From Anaerolineae bacterium (GTDB lineage: Bacteria; Chloroflexota; Anaerolineae; Anaerolineales; Villigracilaceae), in assembly GCA_017303655.1 (NCBI GenBank), contig JAFLCE010000002.1, positions 1 to 64,000 on the forward strand: DNA of 64,000 nt, in the 5' to 3' direction. The first letter of the stretch is position 1, and every line of letters starts with the position of its first letter. Shown here piece after piece: positions 29,135 to 57,246 of the stretch. Made by a program: the position numbers and the translations under genes. Below the pieces are notes generated by a model. That model saw nothing but the letters and a program-made list of their open reading frames with translations. It ran no database searches and was not told where the DNA came from.

Positions 29135-30706
29135 TTATTTCATCAAGTTGTAAATGATGTACCCATCGCCTTCAGCGAAGATGGGATATGTGCTGAGTTT
29201 TTCTTGCAGATAACTTTGACGCTCGAAATCGTCAAAGTCGGTGACGAGGAATAGGTCTTTCTTGGAAGCAAACTCGTTAAACTGTTCTTCCAGATCTTTC
29301 ACGCCGCCGCGTTCTTCGGCATAGCGCAAGTCGCCAGAGGTGGGCCAGGAGGTGCTGTTCTGCCAGCCCCAGTAGGCGAGGCGCGCGCCGTAATCCTGTG
29401 TCAGCCCGGCTAAATTATACCCGTCTGTGATGGAGCCGATCTTTGCCCACATAATGGCTTGCGGACGATAGTCTACGGTGTTGAGCTGATTGCGGACGTT
29501 CCATGTGGAAGCGATGAGACCGAGGAGAAGAAAGAGGAAAGAGGAAACACTCAAAAATTTTGTTAACGTGAGTTGTGCGAGTTTTGCAAAAAGGAATTCA
29601 GCCAGCGGTGCGATGGACAATGCCACGATAGGAATCAAGGGCAGGGAGTAGTAGTCGTGGGTGTGAATGTGAAAGTTAAAGTAAAAGCCAAAAAGGGCGT
29701 ACCCAGCCCAAAGTCCGAGAAGGAGGCGACGTTTTTTATCATCAAAGAAAAAGAGACCGAGCAAAGCTAGCATCAACGTGAATCCGCCGATGACGAGATT
29801 CAACATGTTGAGCCAGCCAACATAATAGGACGGACTGAGAAAGAGATTGGGGATGAAGCGCCCGCCAAATTGTTGACCGAGAAAATCTTGCACGAAGATG
29901 CCGTAGATGAGATAGCTCGCACCGGGGAGGATGCCCAGGAATGCCATGAGATAAAGCTGTGGATCTTTGAGCGCCTCTTTGATGGACCTGTGAGCGAGCA
30001 CCGCGCCCAAGCCCCCGCCAACGACAAAGAAGGCAGCCGGGAATTTGATGAAGATGGCAAGCCCACCGAAGAGACCGGCGAGGATGACAAAAAGCCAGGA
30101 GCGTTTTGAATCGCGAAGCTCGCCAAGATCGCTAAGATTTTCTTGGTTTTTCTTCGCGTCCTTTGCGCTCTTAGCGGTTACTGCACTTGACCATTCCCAG
30201 ACCGCCCACAGGAACATGATGATGAGCATCGTCATGAGCGGATCGGGCTGGAAGCTGCGGCTGGCGATAATGGCGTAGGGCAAAAGGAGATAAACGGCTG
30301 TCGCGGAGATGGCTCCATCTTCCGAAGTGAGACGACGGGCAAGGAGATAGAGGAAGACTCCGCCAATGATCCAAAACGTGGATGAGTATAGGCGCGCCAC
30401 CCACACTTGCTCGCCCGTGAATTGATACGTCCATGCGACGATGCGCTCGAAGAATTCCGGCTCGACCGAGGCACGTAAATTCCATTGTTGAACGGCAAAG
30501 GTGCGTTCTTCGGGGGAGAAGTTGCTGTTGTTTTCATAGTACATGCCGCGCGCTTTAAGCAAAGATAGCAATTGGCGCGTGGAGTGAAATTCGAGCGGCA
30601 GGTCGGTCATGTCATACAGGCGAATCGCAATGCCAAGGGTGAAGATGACGATGAGGGCGAAAATCCGCGCGGGTTTGGTGGAGAAGAAGGAGGTTTGTTC
30701 GTTCAT
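29135..30706 (-). CDS. GT39/ArnT-like membrane glycosyltransferase with in-frame palindromic repeat
   Basis: This 523-residue GT-C protein has about 11 helices. The first loop has TDLPLEFHSTRQ where family members carry the catalytic acidic residues. The sequence ASRSFQPDPLM in the fourth-fifth helix region is shared with the protein at 32719-34233, which marks them as paralogues. Residues about 176-200 (AKSAKDAK and following) are encoded by a palindromic repeat and form a charged insert in the loop before the next helix. Family members transfer a sugar from a polyprenyl-phosphate donor on the outer membrane face. Confidence 0.75.
   Translation of the reverse strand: MNEQTSFFSTKPARIFALIVIFTLGIAIRLYDMTDLPLEFHSTRQLLSLLKARGMYYENNSNFSPEERTFAVQQWNLRASVEPEFFERIVAWTYQFTGEQVWVARLYSSTFWIIGGVFLYLLARRLTSEDGAISATAVYLLLPYAIIASRSFQPDPLMTMLIIMFLWAVWEWSSAVTAKSAKDAKKNQENLSDLGELRDSKRSWLFVILAGLFGGLAIFIKFPAAFFVVGGGLGAVLAHRSIKEALKDPQLYLMAFLGILPGASYLIYGIFVQDFLGQQFGGRFIPNLFLSPSYYVGWLNMLNLVIGGFTLMLALLGLFFFDDKKRRLLLGLWAGYALFGFYFNFHIHTHDYYSLPLIPIVALSIAPLAEFLFAKLAQLTLTKFLSVSSFLFLLLGLIASTWNVRNQLNTVDYRPQAIMWAKIGSITDGYNLAGLTQDYGARLAYWGWQNSTSWPTSGDLRYAEERGGVKDLEEQFNEFASKKDLFLVTDFDDFERQSYLQEKLSTYPIFAEGDGYIIYNLMK
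30108..30181. repeat. AACCGC-type palindromic repeat inside a GT39-like gene
   Basis: tcgcgaagctcgccaag at one end and cgctcttagcggtta at the other are inverted versions of the same motif, with cttcgcgtcctttgcg inside. The same element occurs at 52504-52567 and 56682-56750. It is read in frame as AKSAKDAK. Confidence 0.8.
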
Positions 30707-30772
30707 TGGGCAAAGTAATTGTAACGTAGATTTATGATGACAATTTTAGAAAGCGATTACAATTTCTGAAAA

Positions 30773-31711
30773 ATGAAATCGCTTAATGCTGTTTCCGCTA
30801 AATTCGACTCGCTCACAAATGGACAATGCCGTCCGCAACTCGCTGCGTTGAATTTCGACTCAACGGGCGATCTGCACGCGCTTGATCATTACTTCCCCAT
30901 CGTGCGCATACTCGATGAGGCTGATTCGTTCTATCAACTCGTTCAACACATTGCCCAGCATCCCAACTTTGATCTACAACTCATCGGCGCGAACAAAACG
31001 AATCTCACAACTCACATGCCTGAATCAGTGCGGCATCTTGTGGCGGGGCACCTTGCAGAGGTCTTTTACTTTCGGCGCGATATCCTCGCGCGTTTTCTTT
31101 CCAGCCCGCGTCACTTTCAACTTTACACCACGCCCGAAGCCTTTCATCAAGATGGCGGCGTATCTGGCGGATGTTACAACCCCGCCCGCGAATGCATCCA
31201 ACTCGTCATGTCGCGTCTGTTCGAAGGCTTCAACGGCGCAACGCCGGGCGTATGTCCGTTCCTGCATGAACTAGGTCACATGCTCGATGCGTTCGGCTCA
31301 GGCTCCGGGTTCATGAAACGAGGCGAGGGACTATATCCCGGATTAAGCGTCAGCGACGGTGACATCTTCACTCCTAAAGCGCGGAGTCTCTTCCTCCAAG
31401 GCAAACGCCTCGAACTGAACCGTTACCTGGCTCGCCAAACTGGAGATTTATCCCAGCCGATACCGGTTGGGCATCCATACGTCTTTCAGAATGACGGGGA
31501 ATTCGTGGCGGGCTATCTTGAGATGTTCTTCCGCAACCCGCATTACTTCGCCGCCCAAAACGCGGATTTGTTCATGGCATACGTTGAACTCTTTGGCTAT
31601 GATACCCGCCGCACATGGATGGAAGATTTCCCACATTACGTCAATGCGAATCGCAGCTTCTATGCCAGCGGTCAAATCCCGCCGAAGACGAAGCTGACAA
31701 TACAGGAATAA
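30773..31711 (+). CDS. Orphan HExxH (gluzincin-type) metallopeptidase-like protein
   Basis: This 312-residue protein has a clear zinc motif, FLHELGHMLDAFG (about residue 163), with the third-ligand candidate Glu in FVAGYLEMFFRNPHYF about 80 residues later. The surrounding pattern resembles ATLF-like and MtfA-like metallopeptidases, but I cannot assign a family. There is no signal peptide, so it is probably cytoplasmic. It is the only plus-strand gene in this part of the glycan region and is divergent from a GT39-like gene. A TACAAT -10 element at 30758-30763 places transcription start within a few bases of the ATG, and no ribosome-binding site is visible. Confidence 0.6.
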   Translation: MKSLNAVSAKFDSLTNGQCRPQLAALNFDSTGDLHALDHYFPIVRILDEADSFYQLVQHIAQHPNFDLQLIGANKTNLTTHMPESVRHLVAGHLAEVFYFRRDILARFLSSPRHFQLYTTPEAFHQDGGVSGGCYNPARECIQLVMSRLFEGFNGATPGVCPFLHELGHMLDAFGSGSGFMKRGEGLYPGLSVSDGDIFTPKARSLFLQGKRLELNRYLARQTGDLSQPIPVGHPYVFQNDGEFVAGYLEMFFRNPHYFAAQNADLFMAYVELFGYDTRRTWMEDFPHYVNANRSFYASGQIPPKTKLTIQE

Positions 31712-31713
31712 AA

Positions 31714-31747
31714 AAGTGACAATTACCTTTAAGTTGACTGTCACTTG
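31714..31747. repeat. degenerate GACAGTCA-family palindrome between convergent genes
   Basis: aagtgaca at 31714-31721 pairs with tgtcactt at 31738-31745, with mismatches inside. It matches the perfect copy at 57255-57289 and may act as a terminator for both flanking genes. It overlaps the stop codon of the minus-strand GT2. Confidence 0.55.
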
Positions 31748-32673
31748 GCTTTTTGTTGTTTCTTTCTTCGTTGCAAAACCAGTTCACGCAATTTTCCCAA
31801 ACCCAGCAAATTCAAAATAGACGAGCCAAAAATGTTCATCCGTTTCAACGCAACCGGCGGATAAATGAACAACGCCCGAAACCATGCACTCAAGGCTTTT
31901 CCGGGCAACCCGCCATCGAGCAGATAACGCGCATCCACACGGAAAGCGGAGGCGTGAGCGCGGCGGTCGATCTTATGCAGGGTGGAAGCCAGGTCTTTAT
32001 CCTGCGCGATGGTTTCCAAAATGCGAAAAGCTTCGCGGCCAAACTCGGCAGCTTTAGCGACATTCTTCGCCTCGGCATGATAACGCGCCGCAGACCAGGT
32101 CTGGTTTATGTGAAGAATGCGCCCCTGCTTGGCAATCTTTATCCAGAGCAAATGATCGAGTAAAAAGTGGAATGTGAGGTCTAGTCCGCTTGTTTTTTGC
32201 AAAGCAGAGCGACGCATAAACACAGCCGGTTGACCAATGATCTGAAAACACAATAAATCTTCGAGGGTGAGTTGTTTGTACGTAAGTGTATTGAAGGTCT
32301 GCCCAGACTCATCCACAGCAAGCATATTTGCATATACTAAAACCACATCCGGGTTTTCTTCAAACACCTTCACTGCCGCACTGATCGTTCCGGGCAAATA
32401 ATAATCATCCGAATTTAACCATGCAACAATCTCACCTGTGGCGTGGGCAAAGCCCTTATTGATGGCATCTGCCTGCCCATCATCTTTGACCGATTCCCAA
32501 TGTGCCAGTCTATCGGCATATTTTTTGATAATCTCAACACTTCCATCCGTAGAAGCACCATCCACAACAATGTATTCCATGCGCGGATAATCCTGCTCCA
32601 ACACCGAGAGAATCGTCTGCTCAAGATATTTAGCTTGGTTGTACGAGGGAGTGATAATGGAAACGAGAGTCAT
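31741..32673 (-). CDS. GT2-family glycosyltransferase
   Basis: This 310-residue GT-A enzyme opens with LVSIITPSYNQAKYLEQTI, has EYIVVDGASTDGSVEII for the nucleotide and AWLNSDDYYLPG for the metal. It ends with a basic helix-rich region. The N-terminal half is a paralogue of the GT2 at 25932-26705. I chose the ATG at 32673. The longer frame to 32697 begins inside a hairpin repeat and adds residues that no GT2 start needs. No ribosome-binding site is seen, since the leader is the repeat. Confidence 0.88.
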   Translation of the reverse strand: MTLVSIITPSYNQAKYLEQTILSVLEQDYPRMEYIVVDGASTDGSVEIIKKYADRLAHWESVKDDGQADAINKGFAHATGEIVAWLNSDDYYLPGTISAAVKVFEENPDVVLVYANMLAVDESGQTFNTLTYKQLTLEDLLCFQIIGQPAVFMRRSALQKTSGLDLTFHFLLDHLLWIKIAKQGRILHINQTWSAARYHAEAKNVAKAAEFGREAFRILETIAQDKDLASTLHKIDRRAHASAFRVDARYLLDGGLPGKALSAWFRALFIYPPVALKRMNIFGSSILNLLGLGKLRELVLQRRKKQQKAK

Positions 32674-32683
32674 GGCATTGAGG

Positions 32684-32710
32684 TAGGGGCACAGCAATGC
32701 TGTGCCCCTA
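32684..32710. repeat. TAGGGGCACAGC hairpin repeat
   Basis: taggggcacagc (32684-32695) pairs perfectly with gctgtgccccta (32699-32710) around AAT. It sits between the stop of the GT39-like gene and the start of the GT2, and could attenuate expression of the latter. Confidence 0.7.
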
Positions 32711-32718
32711 CAATGAAA

Positions 32719-34233
32719 TTAACGGAGGTCGTACAAAATATATCCTTCGCCTTCTACAATAATTGGATACGTATCTAGAATCGTTTTCAAGCCGGGTTGT
32801 TTATCCAATTGTCCAAAAGCGGTGACGAGGAAATAATCCTTGCCTGCGGTCAGGTCGGCAAAATCTTCGGCGAAGTTTTTGCCGGGGTTGCGCGTCTCGC
32901 TCAAACCAGTCGCAAGGGGCCACAAGTCTACGATCCGCCAGCCATACAACATCAGCCGATAGCCATAATCCTGCGTCAACGCGATCACCTCACCATCAAC
33001 AGGCACGGCTTCACCAACTTCACTCCAAAAAGCAGGCTCATGTCGGAAACTTTCCGCAACGAGAACGGATCGCGCCGCATAGGCTTGATATCCGATCACA
33101 ACCACAACCAATGCGATGAAACCCACGCGTCCGACTCCGCCGAGGCTTGACACACTTTCAGTGAGCGGATTCAACACGACGGCGAGTCCCAGCACAATCA
33201 ACGGAATGAGTTGAATGTGATAGTAGCTATGTGTGTACATCTGAAAAGGCAAGGTGAGACCATATAGCACATAGCCGATCCATAAACTAACCAGCAGCCA
33301 GCGCATCCGTGACGGAGCGATCAACGCGCCAGCAATCCCCAGGAAGACGATCGTCAAGCCAAATAGCACGCCCAGGAAAGCCAGCCATTTAGTATAAAAA
33401 TCTGTACTGGTGATGAGCTTCATCAACGCCAGCGACCAGGCAAAGAAGTATTCAGTCGAACGCCCTTGATTGAGTAGGACATAATATAAAAGCGCAGGCA
33501 CAACCATAATGACAGCCATCGCCCAAACTTGTTTTGATCTCCAAAAATCTTTACCAAGCGTGAACAACACCAATGCAATAGCAGCGGCTCCTACCATGAA
33601 CGCGATCACGATCTTTACCAGTGTGGCAAAGCCAAGGAAAGCAGCAGCGAGAAGCGCCCACTTCCATGTTGACCTCACCCCCAGCCCCTCTCCTGCGAGG
33701 AGAGGGGAGTGATCTTCACTCCACCGATATAGGAAATAAATACCCAATACAAATGCCGAAGTCATCAATGGGTCGGGTTGGAAGGAACGGCTGACTTCCA
33801 CCGAAAAGGGCAGGACAAAATAATATGCCATCGCGATCAACGCCGCCCATGGCGAAGTGACTCGGCGCATGAGGTCGAAGAGGGCGATCCCTGCAATAAG
33901 CCAAAACAAAGTACTCCACACACGCGCCACGGAAATGCTCTCACCACTAACAAGGAAATAGGAATAGCCCACAATGGTCTCGATAATAGGCGGCTCGTAT
34001 TTGCCGACAGAGTCTGCAAATTCAAAAGCGAGTTGACGTTGTTCTTCAGTAGCAGTGGGGAGTGCCGAATAATAAATATCACGCGCCACGAGCGAATTAC
34101 GTAACTGGCGTGAAGAGTGAAAATCCAAGGGCGGGTCGGTGAGGTCAATGAGTCGGAGTAGTCCGCCCAAGGTGAGGAGCAGGATGAAGAGGATGGACCA
34201 GGTTTGAGGTCGGGTTTGAGGCGTGATTGTCAT
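32719..34233 (-). CDS. GT39/ArnT-like membrane glycosyltransferase with in-frame hairpin repeat
   Basis: This 504-residue GT-C protein is paralogous to the one at 29135-30706 (TDPPLDFHSSRQL in the first loop and SRSFQPDPLM later). Residues about 175-188 (SPLLAGEGLGVRS) are encoded by a CCCTCTCC-type hairpin repeat inserted in frame between two helices. This is the same loop in which the paralogue carries a different repeat. The C-terminal soluble domain ends EGEGYILYDLR, shared with the paralogue's EGDGYIIYNLM. It likely transfers a polyprenyl-linked sugar on the outer face. Confidence 0.75.
   Translation of the reverse strand: MTITPQTRPQTWSILFILLLTLGGLLRLIDLTDPPLDFHSSRQLRNSLVARDIYYSALPTATEEQRQLAFEFADSVGKYEPPIIETIVGYSYFLVSGESISVARVWSTLFWLIAGIALFDLMRRVTSPWAALIAMAYYFVLPFSVEVSRSFQPDPLMTSAFVLGIYFLYRWSEDHSPLLAGEGLGVRSTWKWALLAAAFLGFATLVKIVIAFMVGAAAIALVLFTLGKDFWRSKQVWAMAVIMVVPALLYYVLLNQGRSTEYFFAWSLALMKLITSTDFYTKWLAFLGVLFGLTIVFLGIAGALIAPSRMRWLLVSLWIGYVLYGLTLPFQMYTHSYYHIQLIPLIVLGLAVVLNPLTESVSSLGGVGRVGFIALVVVVIGYQAYAARSVLVAESFRHEPAFWSEVGEAVPVDGEVIALTQDYGYRLMLYGWRIVDLWPLATGLSETRNPGKNFAEDFADLTAGKDYFLVTAFGQLDKQPGLKTILDTYPIIVEGEGYILYDLR
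33671..33709. repeat. CCCTCTCC-type hairpin repeat inside a GT39-like gene
   Basis: Arms cccctctcct and aggagagggg pair around GCG (33685-33707), with flanking gacctcacccccag. On the coding strand it is read as SPLLAGEGLGVRS, a peptide typical of this repeat family. Confidence 0.8.
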
Positions 34234-34257
34234 TGAGTCAACGGTTGAAGGTTAAAT

Positions 34258-35070
34258 TTAGAAGAGGGAATTGTAGTCCACTTTGGGGAAGACGGTGAGT
34301 TTGCCGCCGACAGTGGCATCAATGATTTGACGACCTACTTGTGTATAGGCTTGGCGCGCCATGAGGTAGCCAACTTCAGAGGTGTCGAGATCGGGGAGCT
34401 GCCAGCGCACGCCTTTGCCAAAATAATTCGGCATGAAGTGATTCGGGTCGTCGCCTTCGGAGGTGATAGTCTTGTTCGCGTCACCCTTGGAGGCGAAGTT
34501 GTGATCGACGCCGATGAGAATGACTTGATCAAAACCCATGTGAAATGCGACTTGTAGTGCCACAGTAGTGACCGTGGCACCTTCCCAGACCCGTCCACAC
34601 ACATCGTTGGAAAACTTTGGACCTGTGTAGGATGTATAAATAAAGTTGGTCGTGTTGTTGTATGTGCGTTCATTGAAGAAACGATGTGAACGCCACGAGA
34701 GAAACTTCGGCATTGTCAGCGCGGAGATGTCTTCGACGAATTGTTCGATGACAATGTTATTGATGGAGGCGAAGTATGTGGTTTGAAAGCCAAGCTCGGG
34801 AAAGGCGACGTAAAAGCGATTCATCCCAAAGGTGATCTCGTTCTTGAGTTTGGAAAGATCGGTCTGTTTGAGCGAGGGTCCATTGCCAATGATGAAGGCA
34901 CGCTTGCCTTTGTGAATATCTTTGAAAGCGGCAAGACGTTGAATACTTTCGCGTCGCCACGGATGCCAATACGCGGCAGGCAATTCGGGCAAACGTCGGA
35001 TAGCATCGTTGGTGTAACGTGCGGCATTCCAGAGCGAAGGCGGGATGATCCGTTTGAAAGTTTGTTTCAT
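34258..35070 (-). CDS. DUF115/MptE-like protein, possible sialyltransferase-like transferase
   Basis: This 270-residue protein opens with a nucleotide-binding segment AFIIGNGPSLKQTDLSKL, as in DUF115 proteins and in GT42 sialyltransferases. Downstream are GMNRFYVAF, GATVTTVALQVAFHMGF and ILIGVDHNF. There is no membrane segment. GT42 enzymes use CMP-sialic acid; DUF115 relatives include pterin kinases and flagellin-glycosylation accessory proteins. With CMP-nonulosonate genes in the same region, a transferase role is plausible but not shown. Its ATG overlaps the stop of the small membrane gene upstream? No: it ends 3 bases inside the next unit, as the ATGA at 35067-35070 joins it to that gene. 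Confidence 0.6.
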   Translation of the reverse strand: MKQTFKRIIPPSLWNAARYTNDAIRRLPELPAAYWHPWRRESIQRLAAFKDIHKGKRAFIIGNGPSLKQTDLSKLKNEITFGMNRFYVAFPELGFQTTYFASINNIVIEQFVEDISALTMPKFLSWRSHRFFNERTYNNTTNFIYTSYTGPKFSNDVCGRVWEGATVTTVALQVAFHMGFDQVILIGVDHNFASKGDANKTITSEGDDPNHFMPNYFGKGVRWQLPDLDTSEVGYLMARQAYTQVGRQIIDATVGGKLTVFPKVDYNSLF

Positions 35071-35450
35071 GATTCCTTAACGTAATGAGATTTGAGGGGA
35101 ATGAGGTTGGCAAGCAGGAATAGGTCGAGCAATCCGACGATAATGTAAAGAACATCTGGAAAGCCAACAAACGTCAGCAGAACGTTAAGTACCGCAATGA
35201 CGATGCAAGTGACATATACCCAGAGTTCGCGCTGGTCTATAATGCGCGCGGCGATCAGCATAGACAGTGCCATCACCAAAAAGAAAAAAGCGACCAAAGC
35301 GGAAGACCAGCCATTTCCATCTTCGATCATCTTATAAACAAACAAACCACCCATGACCAGCCACAAGAACGAGTTGATGGAGAAAAGAATCCGTGCGACC
35401 AGGATGCGAGAAAGGTAGGTTTCACGAGTACGTTTTTTTGTTTTCTTCAT
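35067..35450 (-). CDS. Small four-helix membrane protein
   Basis: The protein is 127 residues with about four hydrophobic segments and a basic N-terminus (MKKTKKRTRETYL). The third and fourth helices (IAVLNVLLTFVGFPDVLYIIVGLLDLFLL) resemble the corresponding part of the neighbour at 35461-35808, so the two are probably diverged tandem copies. I chose the ATG at 35450 over 35510, which would overlap the upstream gene by 50 bases. Its stop overlaps the ATG of the DUF115-like gene. No family assignment is possible. Confidence 0.55.
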   Translation of the reverse strand: MKKTKKRTRETYLSRILVARILFSINSFLWLVMGGLFVYKMIEDGNGWSSALVAFFFLVMALSMLIAARIIDQRELWVYVTCIVIAVLNVLLTFVGFPDVLYIIVGLLDLFLLANLIPLKSHYVKES

Positions 35451-35460
35451 TGGAATAATC

Positions 35461-35808
35461 TTATGCAGGCAGTATTTCTTTGCGCGAGCTGTAGAGGACG
35501 AAGAGGGCAACTCCGTTCAGGAGTACGAAGAAGATGTCGATGAATCCGATTTGGTCGAAAAAGGTGAGGAGGATATTCAAGACCAGGATGGTGATGGTTA
35601 ACCAGAAAATGGTTTTGCTGCGAGCCTTCAAGCGAAAATAACAGACCAACAGCAATGCGGCTTCGATGAACATCATCAACGCATAGAACGCATACCAACC
35701 CACAAACTCCGGGTTGCGCCCAAGGTTGATGAGTGTACCCAGCCCAAAGTAGGTCAGAAGCGCTGAGATTAGCAGAATCAAATACCGTGCCAATTGCGGG
35801 TTGTTCAT
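35461..35808 (-). CDS. Small four-helix membrane protein
   Basis: The protein is 115 residues with four hydrophobic segments (starting MNNPQLARYLILLISALLTY). It ends in a short charged tail (YSSRKEILPA). Its last two helices are similar to those of the next gene. It starts 2 bases after the stop of the SDR gene, within the same transcript. The function is unknown; it may be an accessory of the glycan-export or membrane glycosyltransferase proteins. Confidence 0.55.
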   Translation of the reverse strand: MNNPQLARYLILLISALLTYFGLGTLINLGRNPEFVGWYAFYALMMFIEAALLLVCYFRLKARSKTIFWLTITILVLNILLTFFDQIGFIDIFFVLLNGVALFVLYSSRKEILPA

Positions 35809-35810
35809 AG

Positions 35811-36563: not shown

Positions 36564-36592
36564 AGTTTTTATGGGGTTCCTTTACAAATTAC

Positions 36593-36606
36593 GCAATACG
36601 TATTGC
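36593..36606. repeat. short palindrome gcaatacgtattgc
   Basis: A perfect 14-base palindrome lies between the GT-C gene stop (36629) and the SDR start (36563). It could be a weak terminator stem or part of a longer dispersed repeat. Confidence 0.4.
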
Positions 36607-36628
36607 ATCATTCGTAAAATGATATTCG

Positions 36629-39141: not shown

Positions 39142-39144
39142 ATA

Positions 39145-41175: not shown

Positions 41176-41185
41176 AGGAATTTCT

Positions 41186-41284: not shown

Positions 41285-41286
41285 GG

Positions 41287-42835: not shown

Positions 42836-42842
42836 GAAAATG

Positions 42843-44992: not shown

Positions 44993-45015
44993 ATTATCTC
45001 GTTAATTGGTTTCTA

Positions 45016-47755: not shown

Positions 47756-47786
47756 AAAAGAGGAGCCCATGAGCTCCTCTTTTTTG
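47754..47786. terminator. bidirectional intrinsic terminator
   Basis: aaaaaagaggagc pairs with gctcctctttttt around a 6-base loop, between convergent genes. Confidence 0.85.
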
Positions 47787-47797
47787 ATATTAAATAT

Positions 47798-49039: not shown

Positions 49040-49047
49040 ACATTCCT

Positions 49048-50661
49048 CTATTCTTTTAACAAGAAATCTCCGCCATCTAAAACGCCATTCAAGATCGTCT
49101 TTATAGAAGCGGAATTCAGCAACTCATCGAATTCAAACGACTTCAACTTCGTTTGTGTCACGCGCACAGATGGCTCTAAAAACTCACCAAATAGCAACGA
49201 TGTTTTGTACAATTGGTAATACAAGAACTGACGTGCATTGCGTTTAAACTCCGCAGGCACGTCAATGCGTTCCGCTGCCAAAAACTCTTTCATCTTGCTC
49301 CGAACTTCATCCACCGTCTGCGGGAAGAACACCGTGGGGTACTGCGTAAAACGCGCCTTGCCCGCGCACAACACCGCCGCCCCCATGATGGATGCTTCCA
49401 GCCCAATGGTGGAGTTATAGATCATCACAAATTTTGATCGTTGGATCAACTCGTAGGAACTCAACGCCTCAAGCGGACTCACGAAAACGATATTCGCCTC
49501 TTTCCCTACCTCGCGGCTGGTTGCCCAACCCTCAACCGTTTCTCGGCTGGATTTTCTTACCCGTGTCTCGTCGGGATGCGCGCGGATAACAAACAACGTA
49601 TCGCGGCTCTCCCGTGCTACCTCCAACACCATATCGAGCCAGTCAAACATATCTTCAAAAACCGTGTTAGCGTGTGGTTGGCTTGTATCAAAGATGACAT
49701 TCGTAAAGACGGGCACGATCTGTTTGAACCCCGCCGCCTTGCTTAAGAAAGCTTCGTCGAGTCCCTTCATATCCGCCCAGAATTTGACGCCTGCCATCGT
49801 AAAGTCACCTTGAAAGCGTTTGGCAAGATAGGCATCGAGCTTGGCATTTTGGGCGTCGCTCAATTCAAAATCAGCAGGAATGTGGATGGGATACGCTGTC
49901 GCTTCGCCTTCGGTGAAATATGCGGTGGCGGGTTGAAGTCCCACCTCATGTGTAATGACGCGCAGTCCGCGTTTTTGGGCCACGTAACGCGCCGTCGCTT
50001 CGGGGAAGAACTGCCCATTAAAGACCACCACAGCCCGAGGCTGAGTCTGATCGAGAAAAGCAGAAAACTTCTGCGCCACATTCCACGCGGACAAAATGTA
50101 TTCCCGCAAAAGATAGCGCGTGTTCTCATCGTCGTTCAAATGATGGATACGCAGCACCCAACGCAAACCGGCAAGGCATAGCGCGCCGAGTGGAAGGTCA
50201 TGATGAGTGAAACGTGATAATTGATCGATATCCAGATCACGGACGGCTTTCTCGATATCAGTATCTCTTTGAAAGTCAAACCAATTTACTTGTGTGCTTT
50301 TTTCCTTGTCTACTTGCACTCCCGTATACAACGCCTGCGACTGCATCACACAAGACTTGCATGGCATTTCCTTTTGCGGATTGTCGCGATTCGTTCCCAG
50401 CACACATTTGCTCAAGCCCGAATTACAAGCAAAATACGCCACAGGGATTCCCTGCAAACGGAACGCCCACGAGGTTAAAAGGTGAAAGCCGCTATTCCAG
50501 GAAAGATCGTCGATACCGGTGGATGCCTTGAAAAAGACAACGGGCGCGCCGTTCGGCTGAGGCTCTTTGCGAGCCACCTTCCGCGCGATAGAAGCAACCT
50601 TAAGCAAGGTAAGTCTGCGGACAAGCCCGCGTTTGATGCGTTGGGTGAAAAATTCTTTCAT
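49048..50661 (-). CDS. Capsule-type glycosyltransferase-like protein
   Basis: The protein is 537 residues with no membrane helices. It contains a Cys set (CNSGLSKCVLGTNRDNPQKE, then CKSC) near residue 80-110 of the type found in some surface-glycan transferases. The C-terminal half has FTNVIFDTSQPHANTVFEDM, VIRAHPDE and IYNSTIGLEASIMGAAVLC, which resembles the GT-B-like donor side of capsule synthesis proteins (KpsS/KpsC and CDP-glycerol transferases). I chose the ATG at 50661 over a TTG at 50673. It probably builds or primes a polysaccharide. Confidence 0.65.
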   Translation of the reverse strand: MKEFFTQRIKRGLVRRLTLLKVASIARKVARKEPQPNGAPVVFFKASTGIDDLSWNSGFHLLTSWAFRLQGIPVAYFACNSGLSKCVLGTNRDNPQKEMPCKSCVMQSQALYTGVQVDKEKSTQVNWFDFQRDTDIEKAVRDLDIDQLSRFTHHDLPLGALCLAGLRWVLRIHHLNDDENTRYLLREYILSAWNVAQKFSAFLDQTQPRAVVVFNGQFFPEATARYVAQKRGLRVITHEVGLQPATAYFTEGEATAYPIHIPADFELSDAQNAKLDAYLAKRFQGDFTMAGVKFWADMKGLDEAFLSKAAGFKQIVPVFTNVIFDTSQPHANTVFEDMFDWLDMVLEVARESRDTLFVIRAHPDETRVRKSSRETVEGWATSREVGKEANIVFVSPLEALSSYELIQRSKFVMIYNSTIGLEASIMGAAVLCAGKARFTQYPTVFFPQTVDEVRSKMKEFLAAERIDVPAEFKRNARQFLYYQLYKTSLLFGEFLEPSVRVTQTKLKSFEFDELLNSASIKTILNGVLDGGDFLLKE

Positions 50662-50689
50662 TACATGTTCCAACTAGGATTTTTGTCAC

Positions 50690-50718
50690 TTGTACTAAAT
50701 TTATTCTTTTAGTATTAT
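50690..50718 (+). promoter_or_regulatory. sigma70-like promoter for the lipoprotein gene
   Basis: TTGTAC (50690-50695) and TATTAT (50713-50718) are 17 bases apart. The predicted start near 50725 leaves a leader of about 24 bases holding AAGGAGAGG. Confidence 0.6.
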
Positions 50719-50748
50719 ATGGTTAATTCCATAAAAAGGAGAGGAAAT

Positions 50749-51510
50749 ATGAAAAGGAAAAATACCAATCTGTTAATCTTATTTGTTACAACATTGTTTG
50801 TGGTGTCCTGTTCGTTTAGCCCCATCCCAGAACCAACAGCAACCCCAGCTCCCACCGACACACCCACTGCCACAGCCACAATAACGTCAACTCCCACAAA
50901 AACCCCACTCCCAACGAAGACACCCAATCTGGCAGCAACTCAACAATTTGGTGAATGGTACGCTGAAATTGAAGAGTTTTACAATAAAGGCTATATCGGT
51001 ACTAATAAGGGTACCCTGAAGCAATTGAAGAATTTCTCAGAGGAATGGGCACAGCTCAATTGGTATATAACCTGGCCTCTTAATATCGAAGCAAGCGATT
51101 TTGTCTACAGCGCTCACTATTCATGGAGTAGCGCAAGCAAAACTCCAAATCCTTCAGGTTGCGGCATAGTGTTCGGTATTCAAAATGACGGCAGCGACTA
51201 TTCCGTATTTCTAGATCAATCATCAATCATGTTCTTACACACCGAAAACAATCGTGGTTTTCGAGTAGGGAAATCCCGCGGAACGGGCAAGGTGGACCTA
51301 GTGGGAAACACCGAAGCTGATTTCACCCTGATCGTAAATGGCTATTATTCCTATGTCATCGTGAATGGAGAAGTCATCGGAGAATATGCCTTCCCACAAA
51401 ACGAGTCAATGGAGGGTGATTTGGGAGTATCCATCCTTTCGGGTACGAATAAAGATTTCGGAACCCGTTGTTCGATTACGAACATTCGCATCTGGGAGCC
51501 AGCAAAGTAA
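50749..51510 (+). CDS. Secreted lipoprotein with a concanavalin-like beta domain
   Basis: This 253-residue protein has lipobox VVSC (about Cys18), a Thr/Pro linker, and a C-terminal domain of about 170 residues rich in aromatic beta-strands (DYSVFLDQSSIMFLHTEN, then RCSITNIRIWE). The layout resembles LamG or 3-keto-glycoside-hydrolase-like beta-sandwiches, but key residues cannot be assigned. The ATG at 50749 follows a strong ribosome-binding site. It is the only plus-strand lipoprotein gene within the glycan region, with its own promoter and terminator. Confidence 0.7.
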   Translation: MKRKNTNLLILFVTTLFVVSCSFSPIPEPTATPAPTDTPTATATITSTPTKTPLPTKTPNLAATQQFGEWYAEIEEFYNKGYIGTNKGTLKQLKNFSEEWAQLNWYITWPLNIEASDFVYSAHYSWSSASKTPNPSGCGIVFGIQNDGSDYSVFLDQSSIMFLHTENNRGFRVGKSRGTGKVDLVGNTEADFTLIVNGYYSYVIVNGEVIGEYAFPQNESMEGDLGVSILSGTNKDFGTRCSITNIRIWEPAK

Positions 51511-51518
51511 TATTAATT

Positions 51519-51550
51519 CAAACAGACCCTGCAAATGCAGGGTCTGTTTG
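51519..51550 (+). terminator. hairpin after the lipoprotein gene
   Basis: caaacagaccctgc pairs with gcagggtctgtttg around AAAT; the T run after it is weak. Confidence 0.7.
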
Positions 51551-51603
51551 AATATCTACTAGTTATCACCTTCATACTTCAAGCATTGGAACACATCAAT
51601 GAA

Positions 51604-51636
51604 TAAAAAAGACCAGAATATTCCGGTCTTTTTTTG
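51604..51636. terminator. intrinsic terminator after the sulfotransferase
   Basis: aaaaaagacc pairs with ggtctttttt and is T-rich on both strands. It lies just before the minus-strand sulfotransferase stop. Confidence 0.7.
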
Positions 51637-51638
51637 AA

Positions 51639-52493
51639 TTACCAGTAATTGTCCTTCTCATACCCCAATTTCACCAACAGATCCCCCGCAACATCTTTGA
51701 ATAATTTTTTATGTTCTTCGGTGAAGTGCTGTTTCCAGCCGCCGGTCTTACCCGAGCGGAAGGTATGACTCTTCTTCGGCTGAATGGCATCCACCAAAAT
51801 GAGCAATGCCTTCTCACGCGGAGTGGGGATTTTATACCCGGTACTTTCCACTTCATCGAGCATGGCGAGCAGCGTTGCGTCGCGATTATTGATGAGGTCT
51901 TCGAAGCGCAGGCACATTGTGTTCTTCTGTTCAAGCCATGCAAATACGGCTTCATATCTCTGCTTCACGCTGACCATCTTCAAGCCGTCTTTATCAATGC
52001 CTGTGATGGCTACATTGAGTCTCGCCGCAAAATCAGGTAGGGAGTTGTAGTGTGCGTGCATGCCATGCTCTTCGTGCATATCGGTCGCGAAGAAGACTTG
52101 TGAGACGAGCATATCTCTCGGGTCACGATAAATGAAAAAGTTGACGCGCCCAGCTGAGGTTAAGAAAGAGGCGTTCTCTTTCGTCGCATCCACATAGCCC
52201 CAGCCGATCACACCCGCAGGCACAGATCTTAGATCCGTAAGAATTTCTTCTTTCGTCTTTCTTCTTCCATCTCGTGTTATCGTCCGCACCGGGTCGGCAT
52301 CCACATAACGATACGGCATGATTTGCGTGAATCCGTTGAGAATTTGCAGCAACAAATGCGAGCCGCTCTTCGGTTTGGAATTGCCAAAGATGGGCGGTAC
52401 GTCGTTAAATGAAAACCGCTTCCAGCGCAGAATTGCCTGGGCGGTTTTGCCATATGGGCGGAGCGTGCGGCGGATGTTCTGTTTAATACCCAT
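51639..52493 (-). CDS. Sulfotransferase
   Basis: The 284-residue protein has the 5'-phosphosulfate loop IFGNSKPKSGSHLLLQIL and the 3'-phosphate site FIYRDPRDMLVSQVFFATD. The C-terminus has TFRSGKTGGWKQHFTEEHKK, cut over two parts, and VKLGYEKDNYW. It is a close paralogue of the gene at 44144-44992. It is next to neuB, with only a palindromic repeat between them, so a nonulosonic-acid-containing glycan is an attractive acceptor (inference). Confidence 0.92.
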   Translation of the reverse strand: MGIKQNIRRTLRPYGKTAQAILRWKRFSFNDVPPIFGNSKPKSGSHLLLQILNGFTQIMPYRYVDADPVRTITRDGRRKTKEEILTDLRSVPAGVIGWGYVDATKENASFLTSAGRVNFFIYRDPRDMLVSQVFFATDMHEEHGMHAHYNSLPDFAARLNVAITGIDKDGLKMVSVKQRYEAVFAWLEQKNTMCLRFEDLINNRDATLLAMLDEVESTGYKIPTPREKALLILVDAIQPKKSHTFRSGKTGGWKQHFTEEHKKLFKDVAGDLLVKLGYEKDNYW

Positions 52494-52503
52494 AGATATT
52501 TTG

Positions 52504-52567
52504 AACCACGAAGCACGCGAAGGGCGCTAAAAAATCTTTCTTTGCGCTCTTGGCGGTCTTCGCGGTT
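52504..52567. repeat. AACCGC-type palindromic repeat between neuB and a sulfotransferase
   Basis: aaccacgaagcacgcgaag at one end is the inverted form of gcggtcttcgcggtt at the other, with ggcgct and tttgcgctcttgg inside. It is the intergenic form of the element that is in frame at 30108-30181 and 56682-56750. Confidence 0.8.
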
Positions 52568-52576
52568 AATGGTTTT

Positions 52577-53458
52577 TTATTCGTTCACAACGCGGCGGAG
52601 TTTCTTCATCGAACCCTTTTCGGATTCATAGACACGCTTCACGCCGTCGCCCATGCCTGCTTCGGTCACGCGGATGTATTTTACGAGACGCTCAAAACCG
52701 CCCGGCTCCACAGACGCCGCCTGGTCACTACCCCACATGGCACGATCAAGCGTCATGTGACGTTCCACCGAACAAGCACCCAACGCAACTGCCACTGCCG
52801 AAGGAACGAGCCCCACTTCATGACCAGAATACCCGATGGGATTCTTCGGAAATTCATTGCGCAGAGTTTCGATCATGCGCAAGTTCAATTCTTCGGGTTC
52901 ACATGGATACGTGCTAGTGCAGTGCATGATGACGAGATTATCTTCACCAACAGCATTCACACCTTTATGAATTTGCTCCATGGTGGACATGCCCGTGGAA
53001 ATAATGATAGGCTTGCCTGTCTGGCGGACATATTTCAACAGGTTATGATCTGTCAAAGAAGCAGACGGCACTTTATATGCAGGTGTGTCGAACTTCTCCA
53101 TAAAATCCACGGCGGGTTCATCCCACACCGAGACCATCCAATCAATGCCTTTTTCTTTGCAATAGCGGTCAATCTCGCGGTACTGATCTTCGTTGAATTC
53201 AACCTTGTAGCGATAATCCAAGTAGGTGATGTAACCCCAGGGAGTTTCACGCATCACCTTTTGTTGTTCGAGCGGCGTACTTACTTCCGGAGTGCGCTTC
53301 TGGAATTTGACCGCATCCGCGCCCGCATGTACCGCACCGTCAATGATCTTCTTTGCAACATCTAGGTCGCCATTATGGTTGATGCCGATCTCCGCGATCA
53401 CATAAGCAGGGTGACCATCACCCATCATTCGATTTCCAAATTTAATTTCACGCGCCAT
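52577..53458 (-). CDS. neuB: Nonulosonate synthase (NeuB family), no SAF domain
   Basis: This 293-residue enzyme condenses an N-acyl-hexosamine (or hexose phosphate) with phosphoenolpyruvate to a nine-carbon 3-deoxy-sugar acid. Family segments are AYVIAEIGINHNGDLDVA, AGADAVKFQKR, IISTGMSTM, MHCTSTYPCEPEELNL and GYSGHEVGL. The chain ends after the TIM barrel, without the C-terminal SAF (antifreeze-like) domain that normal NeuB proteins of about 345 residues have. I chose the ATG at 53458, preceded by AAGGAG. It lies 2 bases after the NeuA stop. Confidence 0.88.
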   Translation of the reverse strand: MAREIKFGNRMMGDGHPAYVIAEIGINHNGDLDVAKKIIDGAVHAGADAVKFQKRTPEVSTPLEQQKVMRETPWGYITYLDYRYKVEFNEDQYREIDRYCKEKGIDWMVSVWDEPAVDFMEKFDTPAYKVPSASLTDHNLLKYVRQTGKPIIISTGMSTMEQIHKGVNAVGEDNLVIMHCTSTYPCEPEELNLRMIETLRNEFPKNPIGYSGHEVGLVPSAVAVALGACSVERHMTLDRAMWGSDQAASVEPGGFERLVKYIRVTEAGMGDGVKRVYESEKGSMKKLRRVVNE

Positions 53459-53460
53459 TC

Positions 53461-54693
53461 TTAATTCTCCTTTTGAGGTAATTGCTTCAATACTAATTCG
53501 CAAAGCTCACGGATCGCCCCGTGCCCACCATTCTTCGTCAACACATGGTCTGCCGCGCGTAAGACTTCAGGATAGGCATCCGCGACTGCCACAGACCAGC
53601 CTGCCACTTCAAAACAAGGCAGGTCGTTGAGATCATTCCCAACATAGATGACATCTTCTGCTCGAACCTTTTTCTGCTCGAGGACTTCACGCATCACACG
53701 CCCTTTGTCCTGCATCCCGATCCCATGAATTGCCTCCACTCCCATCTTTTTCGCACGTGCCTTTACGACCGGGTTCGGTTCCGAAGAGAGGATCATCACT
53801 TCCACGCCTTTTTCACGCAAAGCTTTAATATGCATGCTGTCACTACGTGAAGCAGAGACGGTCTCTTTGCCGTTCTCATCCGTTAAGACCAGGTTATTCG
53901 TCACTACACCGTCAAAGTCACAAATGATCATCTTTACATTTTCAGGTATTAAGCGACGAGCCTTGCCAGGCGAAACCATATCCAGTCCGCTGTATACCAC
54001 GGCTTCATACTTTGCCCAATCTGCCGGAGTGTCAATATCAACTGTGTACTTCGGGTCGATCACCAGGGGATAAATAATATTGCCAGTTAACGATTTCTTT
54101 TCGGAAATGGTCGTTGTGCGAATGACATCAATATGACCCGTCTGCCAATACACCGACGGCAGGATCTGGCGCGGCGCATTATAAGGTTCGGCGATGCCGG
54201 GAACTTCAAGCAGTTGAGCCAACGGCTTGTCCTCTCCATAAAAGCGCCACATCTTGAAAGGGTTTTGTCCCGCAGGCACTACACCGCGGACACATTCAGC
54301 ATCTTTATGGTCAAGCAAAATTCGAATAGCATCATCCACCATGCTCTTTGAGCGGATCGGCGAGGTAGGACGCAATTGAACGACTGCATCCGGGCGGTAG
54401 CCTTCCACATCTTCGAGCCATTTGAGCGCATGCACAAAAACAGGTAGATCTGTGGTCTTGTCTTGAGCCAGTTCGGTAGGACGCAGAAAAGGTGTCTCTG
54501 CACCCCATTCATGGGCAACTGCTGCGATCTCTTCATCATCCGTCGAAACGATAATGCGAGTCACCAACTCTGATTGTTTTGCCGCGGCAATGCTCCAGGC
54601 AATCAGTGGATAGCCCGCAAAGAGGCGTATGTTCTTGCGCGGAATGCCTTTCGAGCCGCCGCGCGCAGGGATGATAGCGAGGATGTTTGTCAT
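53461..54693 (-). CDS. neuA: CMP-nonulosonate cytidylyltransferase fused to a HAD (KdsC-like) phosphatase
   Basis: The N-terminal 230 residues are a NeuA-type enzyme (ILAIIPARGGSKGIPRKNIRLFAGYPL, then VQLRPTSPIRSKSM) that makes CMP-nonulosonate from CTP. The C-terminal 160 residues are a HAD phosphatase: MIICDFDGVVTNN, MHIKALREKGVEVMILSSEPN, and VIYVGNDLNDLPCFEVAG. The fusion is like that of animal CMAS and of KDN/Neu 9-phosphate pathways, so the product of NeuB may be a 9-phosphate that this protein dephosphorylates before activation. neuB follows 2 bases downstream. Confidence 0.9.
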   Translation of the reverse strand: MTNILAIIPARGGSKGIPRKNIRLFAGYPLIAWSIAAAKQSELVTRIIVSTDDEEIAAVAHEWGAETPFLRPTELAQDKTTDLPVFVHALKWLEDVEGYRPDAVVQLRPTSPIRSKSMVDDAIRILLDHKDAECVRGVVPAGQNPFKMWRFYGEDKPLAQLLEVPGIAEPYNAPRQILPSVYWQTGHIDVIRTTTISEKKSLTGNIIYPLVIDPKYTVDIDTPADWAKYEAVVYSGLDMVSPGKARRLIPENVKMIICDFDGVVTNNLVLTDENGKETVSASRSDSMHIKALREKGVEVMILSSEPNPVVKARAKKMGVEAIHGIGMQDKGRVMREVLEQKKVRAEDVIYVGNDLNDLPCFEVAGWSVAVADAYPEVLRAADHVLTKNGGHGAIRELCELVLKQLPQKEN

Positions 54694-54759
54694 AATCAGA
54701 CCGTTGACCTCGAACGACGGACCATTTTCAATGATCTACCGTCCATCGTCTAGTTTACC

Positions 54760-55587
54760 TTACCAGGCTGTCCAACCGCCATCGACGATGACATTGTTGC
54801 CAGTCATGTACGAAGAGGCTTCTGAGGCAAGGAACAATAACGCGCCGTTCATTTCATCCTTCTTCGCCATGCGACCAAGAATAGTTTTGGCGGAGTAATT
54901 CTTGACGAAATACTCTTCATGGTTATTGTATACACCACCGGGGGTCAGTGCATTGACGCGGATTTCGGTCTCGGCATAGTAGGCGGCAAGATATTTGGTA
55001 AAACCCATCACACCAGCTTTGGTGGTGGTGTAGTAAGCAGGCTTGAATGCCACACGCTTGCCATCTTTGATATAGATACGCTGATCCGGCCCATTTAAAC
55101 CATACGTTGAACAGATGTTAATAATGCTGCCTTTTTTGCCTTGTGCGATCATCTGTTTAACGCAGGCTTGGGTGGTGAGGAACATACCGGTCAAGTTGAC
55201 GTTTAGGGCTGCCTGCCAATCGGCAAGTGGATAATCTTCGAAGGCGCCGGGGGCGATTCCTTTTTCGGCAGCAGTCGGGTCAAATTTAGGGTCTAGTGCG
55301 GCACTGTTGACGAGAATGTCGAGGCGACCGAATTGTTTGACGGTTTCAGCGACCAGCTCCCGGGTCGATTCGAGGCGGGTTACGTCGAGGGGAAATGCCA
55401 TCGCAGAGTATCCGGCTTCGGTGAGTCGAGTCGCGGTCTTGCCAGCAAAATCCATGTTGAGGTCTGCGGCAACGACGGCTGCGCCTGCTTCGGCCAGGGT
55501 CTTGCAAAATTCATAGCCCAACTGTCCGCCGCCGCCAGTAACGACAGCTACGCGGTCTTTCAAATTGAATTTATCGAAAATGGTCAT
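54760..55587 (-). CDS. SDR-family oxidoreductase
   Basis: This 275-residue short-chain dehydrogenase has VVTGGGGQLGYEFCKTL, LVNSAAL, and active-site Ser/Tyr/Lys in NICSTYGLNGPDQ and YYTTTKAGVMGF. There is a longer insert around residues 110-125 (DPTAAEKGIAPGAFEDYPL) and the C-terminus is VIVDGGWTAW. The position directly upstream of neuA-neuB suggests it prepares or modifies a sugar for that pathway, but the reaction cannot be deduced. Confidence 0.9.
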   Translation of the reverse strand: MTIFDKFNLKDRVAVVTGGGGQLGYEFCKTLAEAGAAVVAADLNMDFAGKTATRLTEAGYSAMAFPLDVTRLESTRELVAETVKQFGRLDILVNSAALDPKFDPTAAEKGIAPGAFEDYPLADWQAALNVNLTGMFLTTQACVKQMIAQGKKGSIINICSTYGLNGPDQRIYIKDGKRVAFKPAYYTTTKAGVMGFTKYLAAYYAETEIRVNALTPGGVYNNHEEYFVKNYSAKTILGRMAKKDEMNGALLFLASEASSYMTGNNVIVDGGWTAW

Positions 55588-55626
55588 ATGGGTTCCTTTT
55601 GAAGTAGGGCAACATAGTATGTCGCC

Positions 55627-57246
55627 TTACGGAAATGCAGTATAGATTTTATCGCCTTGTTCGTTGAATGCGAGATACAGCCCATCGGCAAGAGTTTGAT
55701 AAACCGATTGTACATCTTCATCCTGCGAATCAACATCAAAGAGTGCCAGCACGGCTTCGCCAGAAAGAACGTCGGCTTGAAGCTTGCTAACACTTTCATC
55801 GAAAAGCCCGCGCGGCAGACCAGTGACCGGATCAATCAAATCAGGTAGAACATAACCGGGGTGATCTGTGTAGAGATAGATGGCTGCGGTTTCATTGGAA
55901 TAAATGCGCACGTCTTCGGGCAGTGTTTGCAGAAATTTCATCCCGTCTGAGTCGAACCATTGGAAGGAGGCGTATCCCTGTCCGCCTTTGCGGAGTTGGG
56001 TGAGGGTGTCAGTAAAGCCAGAAAGAGAAAGGGAGAAGATGACTAAAGATAAGAGGATAGTAACGGCTTTTTGTTTTTGCCAAAGCCAATAACCAAGATA
56101 GACAAGCATGATCAGCAGGCTGACGTACACCGGCGAAACGATGCGGAGTTGGAATTTGGTGCTGGCATCGAACCAAGTCATGGAAGAAATAATGGATGCC
56201 AGATAGCCAAAGATATAAAGTGTACTGATAAAAGATAGAACTTCGAGGGGTTCGGTTGCTGGTTGGAAGAATTTTTTTACACCCTTAAATAAAACCCAAA
56301 GAAGTAAAGCCAGAACAAGTAGGGCGAGAAGCGTTACAAAGAAATTTGGTACTTTGATCAGCGCACGCCGCCATTCTTCAATGGGCATAACGAAAGTAGC
56401 AAAGTTGGAAATGCCAAGTTGAATATTTTCTGCTGTGATTGGGTGATAGACGATGGTGCGATTGGTAGCATTATCTGCTAATAGACGGTTGCGGATGCCC
56501 CACGCCAGTGCGAAGGGAATAAACCCGGCAAGGAAGATGGCAATACTAGTGAGTCGTTTTTCCCAGGTGGGGTGAAGAATGAAGAGTGAAACTAGGAAGG
56601 TGGCGAGTAGAGCCAGACCGGCGTAGCGAGTGAGGTAGGCGAAAGCGGTGAGAACCGCTGTGAGGAGGAGAAAACCATTTGAACCGCGAAGCACGCGAAG
56701 AGCGCCAAGATTTTTAGGTTCCTTTGCGTCCTTCGCGCTCTTGGCGGTTAATTTATTTTGTTCTTCAGAAAAATAATGCCAAAAGAATAAGAACGCAGCA
56801 AGAGTAAAAAAGATATATAGCGGTTCGCTCATCGCCAGGGTATGGACACGGAACAACTGTCCATTCACCAGAAGTAGAAGAGCGAGTACGCCTCCCGCCA
56901 CTTTTGATCTGGTCATGCGCCAGCCGATGATTCCAAGCATGAAAATATTCGCGCCAAACACAAGCGCATTGACAAAGCGTGTGCCGCGTAATGGATCGAG
57001 CCCGCTTAAGCCGACGAGGGCGAGGATGGTTGAAAAACCAGGAGGGAAGTGAGTCACCGGCTGGTTCGATGCCAGCCACGCTTCGCGATAGCCTTGTCCG
57101 CTTAGGATGCTTCTTGCTCCAGCAATATAGCCGATGGAATCATCCAAGAGTCCCATGCCTTGTGGAGTCGCATAAAGGATAAGAAAAGTCCCTGAAAGGG
57201 CAAGCAGGCTGAGGATTAAGGATGAAGCGTAAGGGGGTTTGGTCAT
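55627..57246 (-). CDS. GT39-like membrane glycosyltransferase with in-frame palindromic repeat
   Basis: The 539-residue GT-C protein has about 11 helices. The first loop carries GLLDDSIGYIAGARSILSG with the acidic pair. Residues about 166-189 (AKSAKDAK and following) come from the same palindromic repeat as in 29135-30706, in the same reading frame and at the same place after the fifth to sixth helix. The C-terminal soluble part has FDSDGMKFLQTLPEDVRIYSNE. It probably transfers a sugar from a polyprenyl carrier. Confidence 0.72.
   Translation of the reverse strand: MTKPPYASSLILSLLALSGTFLILYATPQGMGLLDDSIGYIAGARSILSGQGYREAWLASNQPVTHFPPGFSTILALVGLSGLDPLRGTRFVNALVFGANIFMLGIIGWRMTRSKVAGGVLALLLLVNGQLFRVHTLAMSEPLYIFFTLAAFLFFWHYFSEEQNKLTAKSAKDAKEPKNLGALRVLRGSNGFLLLTAVLTAFAYLTRYAGLALLATFLVSLFILHPTWEKRLTSIAIFLAGFIPFALAWGIRNRLLADNATNRTIVYHPITAENIQLGISNFATFVMPIEEWRRALIKVPNFFVTLLALLVLALLLWVLFKGVKKFFQPATEPLEVLSFISTLYIFGYLASIISSMTWFDASTKFQLRIVSPVYVSLLIMLVYLGYWLWQKQKAVTILLSLVIFSLSLSGFTDTLTQLRKGGQGYASFQWFDSDGMKFLQTLPEDVRIYSNETAAIYLYTDHPGYVLPDLIDPVTGLPRGLFDESVSKLQADVLSGEAVLALFDVDSQDEDVQSVYQTLADGLYLAFNEQGDKIYTAFP
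56682..56750. repeat. AACCGC-type palindromic repeat inside a GT39-like gene
   Basis: aaccgcgaagcacgcgaag and agcgccaag at one end face cttcgcgctcttggcggtt at the other. It is read in frame as AKSAKDAK. Copies lie at 30108-30181 and 52504-52567. Confidence 0.85.

Follow-up and report, generated by a model that had tools for sequence, protein, structure and literature searches.

Palindromic repeats of different families in frame at the same loop of GT-C and GT-C-like genes in an Anaerolineae bacterium and its relatives

Palindromic repeats that lie in frame within protein-coding genes are best known from Rickettsia and Wolbachia. Here, we describe repeats of this kind in a stretch of 64,000 nucleotides (nt) from an Anaerolineae bacterium (assembly GCA_017303655.1, contig JAFLCE010000002.1, positions 1 to 64,000), referred to as the window, in which three genes on the minus strand, g1 (29135-30706), g2 (32719-34233) and g3 (55627-57246), each contain a palindromic repeat that is read through in frame after the fourth helix of the protein. 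In related species the loops at this position are either empty or filled by repeats of four families, A, B, C and D, or by others, and the long insertions found in g1 and most of those found in g3 are concentrated there. This pattern is probably best explained by mobile, non-autonomous palindromes that are filtered by the reading frame and by the tolerance of the loop. Genomes are labelled with G (G000 is the bacterium's own genome) and loci with L.

In g1, an element of family A at positions 30110-30178 encodes TAKSAKDAK...LSDLGELRD (residues ~177-200), and another one in g3, at 56683-56748, encodes TAKSAKDAK...LGALRVLRG (residues ~167-189); both were recognized by the pairing of their arms and by comparison with orthologues that do not possess the element. 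The repeat of g2, at 33673-33707 on the minus strand, is a hairpin of family B (the CCCTCTCC type) that encodes SPLLAGEGLGVR and was identified by hairpin and pattern searches and by comparison with relatives. An intergenic copy of family A at 52505-52567, found by repeat and arm search, served for comparison. The open reading frames (ORFs), the arms of family A and the hairpin of family B were all found where the original prediction made for this DNA had placed them, and the translations run in frame through all three repeats.

The elements of family A are built of two arms, each comprising about three 9-base units (NNCGCNAAG), with an A/T-rich centre between them, which gives an inverted repeat of ~70 bp. 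In the own genome they are dispersed: with up to 2 mismatches there are 44+67 matches (15+8 for the reversed pattern), and 35 elements with paired arms were located in the loci fetched from this genome, with a core of 53-73 bp in 33 of them and of 45 and 106 bp in the remaining two. Within genes of the own genome, family A is always read as TAKxAK; the confirmed hosts are g1, g3 and a gene for a heparinase-like protein (L024), while other ORFs that span copies were not counted as confirmed genes. The distribution of the family in the phylum is patchy, with exact matches in 22 of 201 genomes; 51+43 matches were obtained for G058 and 66-71 for each of three genomes of one distant family, the other genomes of which have fewer or none. 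Family B, which is ~35-45 bp long, has few copies in the own genome (allowing up to 3 mismatches, 3 places and none for the reversed pattern; 3 in a second search; four different places overall). In seven relatives it yields 11 to 191 matches per strand, compared with 3 to 16 for the reversed pattern, and peaks at 188+191 in G036 (8+10 reversed), where it should be kept in mind that a palindrome is matched on both strands. As a side observation, the degenerate positions in the arms of family A avoid mutual pairing: only 26 of 231 position pairs are complementary, compared with 73 expected (33 of the 35 elements), and inspection by eye of 8 elements from four other genomes gave 3 of 48. It seems that the hairpin retains its mismatches, to which an asymmetric common ancestor may have contributed in part.

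That the repeats of g1 and g3 are insertions is evident from their empty sites. Matches to g1 were found in 88 and to g3 in 81 of 121 genomes, and sets of 50 orthologous ORFs were analysed for each of these genes, along with 40 for g2. In tblastn searches, the orthologues without an insert align in two pieces, which stop at residues ~174 and ~202 in g1 and at ~164 and ~189 in g3. In 24 of the 50 g1 orthologues there are only 33-36 nt where the gene of the window has 111 nt (L149 was scored as 'none' only because its contig ends at the loop, and it holds a remnant of family B). Because so many orthologues have just this short segment, homologues without the repeat differ in length from those with it, and the prediction that the segments are insertions stands for family A. 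The insert of family A in g1 is also present, in frame, in four relatives whose proteins are 75-86% identical to g1. For g2 the empty site is less exact, as in place of 72 nt there are 48-54 nt in the three shortest orthologues of the same genus and 27-54 nt in four from more distant relatives, and in the orthologues L158, L171 and L172 the palindrome has decayed with its length kept; comparison of these sequences nevertheless makes it likely that the g2 repeat is an insertion as well.

The products of g1 (523 aa) and g2 (504 aa) match the Pfam family PMT_2 with E-values of 4e-10 and 3.8e-14, respectively, and their alignment reveals that they are paralogues with a common SRSFQPDPLM sequence. 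An AlphaFold2 model of g1, made from 8 sequences, is of low confidence (mean pLDDT 57) and was used solely for placing residues 178-201, a low-confidence stretch, between the helices 155-176 and 202-220, and for a Foldseek search, the best PDB matches of which are oligosaccharyltransferase (OST; 1.1e-4) and ArnT (9.6e-4). A search of PDB with the sequence of g1 gave a single weak match to a motility protein, which was judged to be due to chance. Taken together, the family match and the model make GT-C a fair name for g1 and, because it is a paralogue of g1, for g2. The product of g3 (539 aa) is a polytopic protein that is not recognized by the PMT_2 profile, matches PMT with E=0.33 only and is not alignable to g1 or g2; homology to them was sought by profile alignment, which failed (hhalign probability 0.4%). 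The original prediction regarded all three genes as GT-C genes and the first and third products as the paralogues with the common SRSFQPDPLM; the former holds for g1 and g2 and is not demonstrable for g3, and in the latter case the pair is g1 and g2. For g3, a GT-C-like character and the identity of the loop are suggested by the order of the helices, in which the insert comes after the fourth hydrophobic stretch read from the sequence.

The loops of the relatives contain more than the two unrelated families that had been predicted. Family C is similar to A (ACCACNAAG) and is read in another frame, and family D is a double hairpin (GGAGTGCAGGAGCTTGCTCCTGCA...GACTCC) that occurs in the loops of g2 and g3 and has matches in 9 of 11 genomes (up to 26, in G048, on both strands together, none in the own genome and none with the reversed pattern). 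The g2 loop of L173 holds yet another repeat (TTGCGAGCGAAGCGAAGCAA), with 2 exact matches in G005, one of which is the g2 loop itself, and 12+7 matches in G041 (1+1 reversed). The loops were labelled by means of six patterns, a label being given if the best match was reached in no more than 1 of 100 single-base shuffles, which leaves room for a few false labels. For g1 this resulted in 7 loops with A, 9 with B, 4 with C, 24 with none and 6 unlabelled; for g3 in 4 with A, 7 with B, 11 with D, 16 with none and 12 unlabelled; and for 20 rows of g2 in 11 with B, 4 with D and 5 unlabelled. The labelled inserts fold better than controls, with a mean z of -1.6 for A, -1.7 for B, -3.0 for C and -3.7 for D, compared with -0.01 for the control (n=320). 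Tandem double inserts of family B are present in g1 (L076), in g3 (L105, L153), in the heparinase-like gene (L202) and in a terminase-like gene (L214). The loop has therefore taken up repeat DNA repeatedly and without frameshift, as predicted, being found empty or in states A, B, C and D among the relatives.

The turnover of these states was followed on single, quickly built gene trees made without the columns of the loop, which for g2 included 20 of the 40 orthologues. With the unlabelled rows (6 for g1 and 12 for g3) set aside, the pattern labels require 15 changes of state in g1 and 16 in g3, or 7 and 7 if only filled loops are considered; these values supersede those of 20 and 25 obtained with earlier labels assigned by hand. 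They are counts of changes and not of gains, the direction of each change being presumed, and local recombination is compatible with the gene trees. The genomes G036 and G017 are sisters in both g1 (support 100) and g3 (support 97), and in both genes the former carries A and the latter B. In g1, the sister of G018, which has B, is G025 without any insert (support 88), and the sister of G031 and G046, which have C, is G005, also without any (support 99).

We scanned the orthologues for insertions of at least 8 aa, excluding upstream extensions because the ORFs were taken from stop to stop. Such insertions occur in 23 of the 50 g1 orthologues, 22 of them at residues 175-199 and one at 202, and there are none elsewhere inside the protein. 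Among the 50 orthologues of g3, 30 were found at residues 161-186, 5 at 396, 1 at 329 and 3 at residue 11. The g2 set is uninformative in this respect, as most of its rows are filled. Around residue 396 of g3, repeat-like strings (VIAR-type, ASRIT) were noticed in some relatives (L138, L153, L093, L139), the VIAR-type ones in two rows, and these are perhaps further repeats. GT-C genes were also considered as general hosts and rejected: the own genome has 29 matches to PMT_2, two of which fall in g1, and a strict scan of these for A or B pairs, with C and D scanned loosely, returned g1 and g2 and, in addition, a weak pair at L305 that lies outside its ORFs.

Repeats of family B were also found in other conserved genes. 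We carried out a census of 40 regions (15 from G018 and 25 from G031) that cover ~42 of 54 listed places, not counting the loops of g1 and g2 in G018 and of g2 in G031; the reversed pattern gave 4+4 and 6+5 matches, so a few of the copies may have matched by chance. The Pfam search covered 20 ORFs, mostly without those that have a copy near one end. Long ORFs with a B-like copy in frame, placed within a Pfam domain or between domains, were found in 11 of the 40 regions; their products are a non-ribosomal peptide synthetase-like protein (L197), UvrD (L199), the heparinase-like protein (L202), shikimate kinase (L206), SecA (L207), an ABC transporter (L209), MoeA (L225), a xanthine-dehydrogenase-like protein (L227), an amidohydrolase (L228), an ABC ATPase (L229) and a DUF1156 methylase (L231). 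In six of them (L197, L199, L202, L206, L209 and L225) the stem matches with 0 or 1 mismatch, and four more in-frame copies (L196, L208, L210 and L214) are probable. Across genes, family B is read in three frames, which give peptides of the PSPSGRG, PLPxGEG and LSLRERG types. The heparinase-like gene carries A in the own genome (L024) and a double B in G018 (L202) at the same site, with 558 of 683 aligned residues identical; judged from this sequence comparison, the main finding recurs here outside the GT-C enzymes, and the process is wider than the GT-C loop.

According to the explanation that we prefer, the dispersed palindromic repeats A, B, C and D would be non-autonomous elements that insert at many places by some form of transposition. 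A copy inside a gene would persist only if its length keeps the frame, if it brings no stop codon and if the protein tolerates the extra residues, and selection would eliminate copies with a frameshift or a harmful effect on the protein. Read from their units, the arms of A and B are devoid of stop codons in most frames, which should make survival in genes easier. The short loop between two helices, from the order of which we infer a cytoplasmic location, would tolerate the remaining copies, presumably as neutral passengers, and this tolerance may be the reason why the site is favoured. During the divergence of the species, repeats in the loops of g1, g2 and g3 would thus have been gained, eroded and lost, and then replaced by those of different families. 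As to the mobilizing enzyme, all 8 genomes searched have matches to Y1_Tnp, and the enzyme of this type associated with repetitive extragenic palindromic (REP) sequences, known as RAYT, was considered and not favoured: patterns of A, B or C lie 0.3-2.3 kb away in 5 of the 18 fetched loci (in 5 genomes), on one side and not flanking the gene. In the own genome, one Y1_Tnp gene (L247, G000:C104:10706-11519), which reads as RAYT-like, itself contains in-frame palindromes (GACTTCGGAAGTC-like) that code for TSEV.

A number of observations weigh against this explanation. No mobilizer was found in the Y1_Tnp search of 8 genomes, with 18 loci fetched. Tolerance alone leaves unexplained both the sole use of this loop in g1 and the constant length of 33-36 nt in 24 of 24 insert-free g1 orthologues. 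The neighbouring DUF6056 gene g0 (27671-29116, minus strand, assigned by Pfam), which codes for a membrane protein, was taken as a control for insertions and has none of at least 8 aa in 29 homologous ORFs, but the control is weak, with 9 of the 30 listed matches at 57% identity or more and the rest at 32-49%. Only 6 of 11 inserts of A, 11 of 27 of B, 2 of 4 of C and 11 of 15 of D reach the 5% level of folding (17 of 320 in the control). Of 80 long loops, 23 have no label; their folding is hardly better than that of the control (mean z -0.58, with 3 of 23 reaching the 5% level), and some of these may not be derived from repeats. The labels hardly follow the trees, several branches of which are weakly supported: the hand labels of g3 required 25 changes compared with a mean of 29.6 after shuffling, and in g2 there are 9 compared with 8.1; this weak agreement fits rapid turnover but also labelling noise. 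Among the 11 in-frame B-like copies, 5 have 2 mismatches, and the assignment of these genes rests on the repeat pattern and Pfam, with orthologue comparison covering the heparinase-like gene.

Because tolerance explains neither the use of one loop in g1 nor the constant length of the empty loops, we also considered that the loop may be a landing pad, in which hairpin or site DNA already present attracts further insertions and helps deletion, so that repeats replace repeats; at the replication fork, a single-stranded hairpin could favour template switching at the site or draw in a transposase that targets hairpins. We regard this as rather unlikely, despite the presence of different families at the same few codons in sister species, the tandem double inserts of B in four genes and the fact that other sites of g1 are free of long insertions and those of g3 have few. 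Sisters of which one has an empty and the other a filled loop (G025 and G018; G005 and G031 with G046), where gain and loss are indistinguishable, suggest that a resident repeat may not be needed, and neither a target motif nor target duplication has been established, no search for the latter having been made. Another idea is that the insert, or the hairpin in the mRNA, is useful to the host, e.g. by holding up translation during membrane entry of the fourth helix or by making a cytoplasmic loop more positively charged. The lysine-rich peptides of family A and its in-frame presence in the four relatives of g1 would agree with such a role; nevertheless, it appears very unlikely for a loop that is without any insert in 24 of 50 g1 orthologues and in which the peptides of different families have no evident common sequence or charge, B even being read in three frames.

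We give hardly any credence to the view that independent insertions are overcounted because a small number of original inserts was passed on, together with the loop region, by local recombination or horizontal transfer. The evidence on turnover does consist of gene trees only, and transfer within polysaccharide clusters is plausible, but unrelated families at one site would still require separate insertions, and the same pair of species differs in g1 and g3 alike. Finally, the probability that there are no insertions at all, the long charged loop being native to the proteins or an artefact of assembly, is negligible. The 23 long loops without a recognized repeat and the shortest g2 orthologues of the same genus, which are just 18-24 nt shorter, could be quoted in its favour; however, the alignments of g1 and g3 with their orthologues are interrupted at the ends of the insert, copies are dispersed elsewhere in the genome, and such inserts are present in many separate assemblies. 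For family A in g1 and g3 this view is refuted. The insertion of mobile palindromes, filtered by frame and by the tolerance of the loop, probably remains the best account of the data.

Two further features of the window were noted. Another family of palindromes (AAGTGACAGTCACC...GGTGACTGTCACTT) has copies at 20484-20520, 31711-31747 and 57253-57289, which are 68-86% alike to the reference copy. Besides, the stretches 26421-26694 and 32404-32677 are 73% identical, and the second of them is located inside an ORF (31741-32697) whose product looks like a glycosyltransferase.

The repeats described here resemble the palindromic repeats of Rickettsia and Wolbachia in being dispersed in many copies and in lying in frame in unrelated conserved genes, and a likeness to Rickettsia palindromic elements (RPEs) had been proposed in the original prediction. 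RPEs are described as palindromes of 100-150 bp, many of them in frame inside ORFs (PMC3767692), each of which is said to encode a conserved peptide (PMC10969869), although a table for R. japonica lists lengths from 84 bp (PMC3767692). Compared by description, our repeats work like RPEs, and in this respect the proposal is borne out; they are, however, shorter (mostly 53-73 bp for A and ~35-45 bp for B), and B, unlike RPEs, is not bound to one reading frame and has no single conserved peptide, even if A is always read as TAKxAK in the genes of the own genome. In R. japonica, there are orthologues with another RPE group, or with no RPE, at nearly the same position, for which the authors left two options, a hot spot that received insertions from different sources or a single insert that has diverged (PMC3767692); in contrast, the families that share one loop here are unrelated by pattern. 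About 50 related genomes with an empty, filled or differently filled loop make it possible to test these options against each other, and also to find out which of insertion, deletion and selection determines the site. At the same time, they offer successive stages in the conversion of selfish DNA into protein sequence. Should the loops be landing pads, for which the chances are fairly low, the genomes of the genus would keep a few protein positions where selfish DNA continually yields new peptide sequence.

Precedents are also found among other short repeats. Our search of the literature on in-frame palindromes, from which most subscription papers fell outside, returned reports on Rickettsia, on miniature inverted-repeat transposable elements (MITEs) and on REPs, and none for this lineage; a text search with the repeat strings gave, among the matches listed, the DNA string CCCTCTCCC alone, and none of these matches concerns such repeats by its title. 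MITEs (ERIC and others) are small and non-autonomous and sometimes form in-frame fusions (PMC10969869). REPs of the GTAG and CGTC types occur inside ORFs, GTAG repeats have been reported for Chloroflexi, and in recB of two Xanthomonas species different REPs are located at about the same site (PMC3733652), which is a precedent for shared sites. Our repeats are similar to such intragenic, RAYT-associated REPs in being short palindromes inside ORFs of several species, but the copy of family B in the window has no GTAG or CGTC beside its stem, and no RAYT gene with copies on both sides was seen in the 18 loci from 5 genomes. As for the hosts, g1 and g2 are like GT-C enzymes in matching PMT_2, with OST and ArnT among the best matches of the g1 model, and g3 is not recognized by PMT_2. 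All in all, the behaviour of these repeats is of a known kind, here in a new host group, with other repeat families and with one site occupied by unrelated families across many species.

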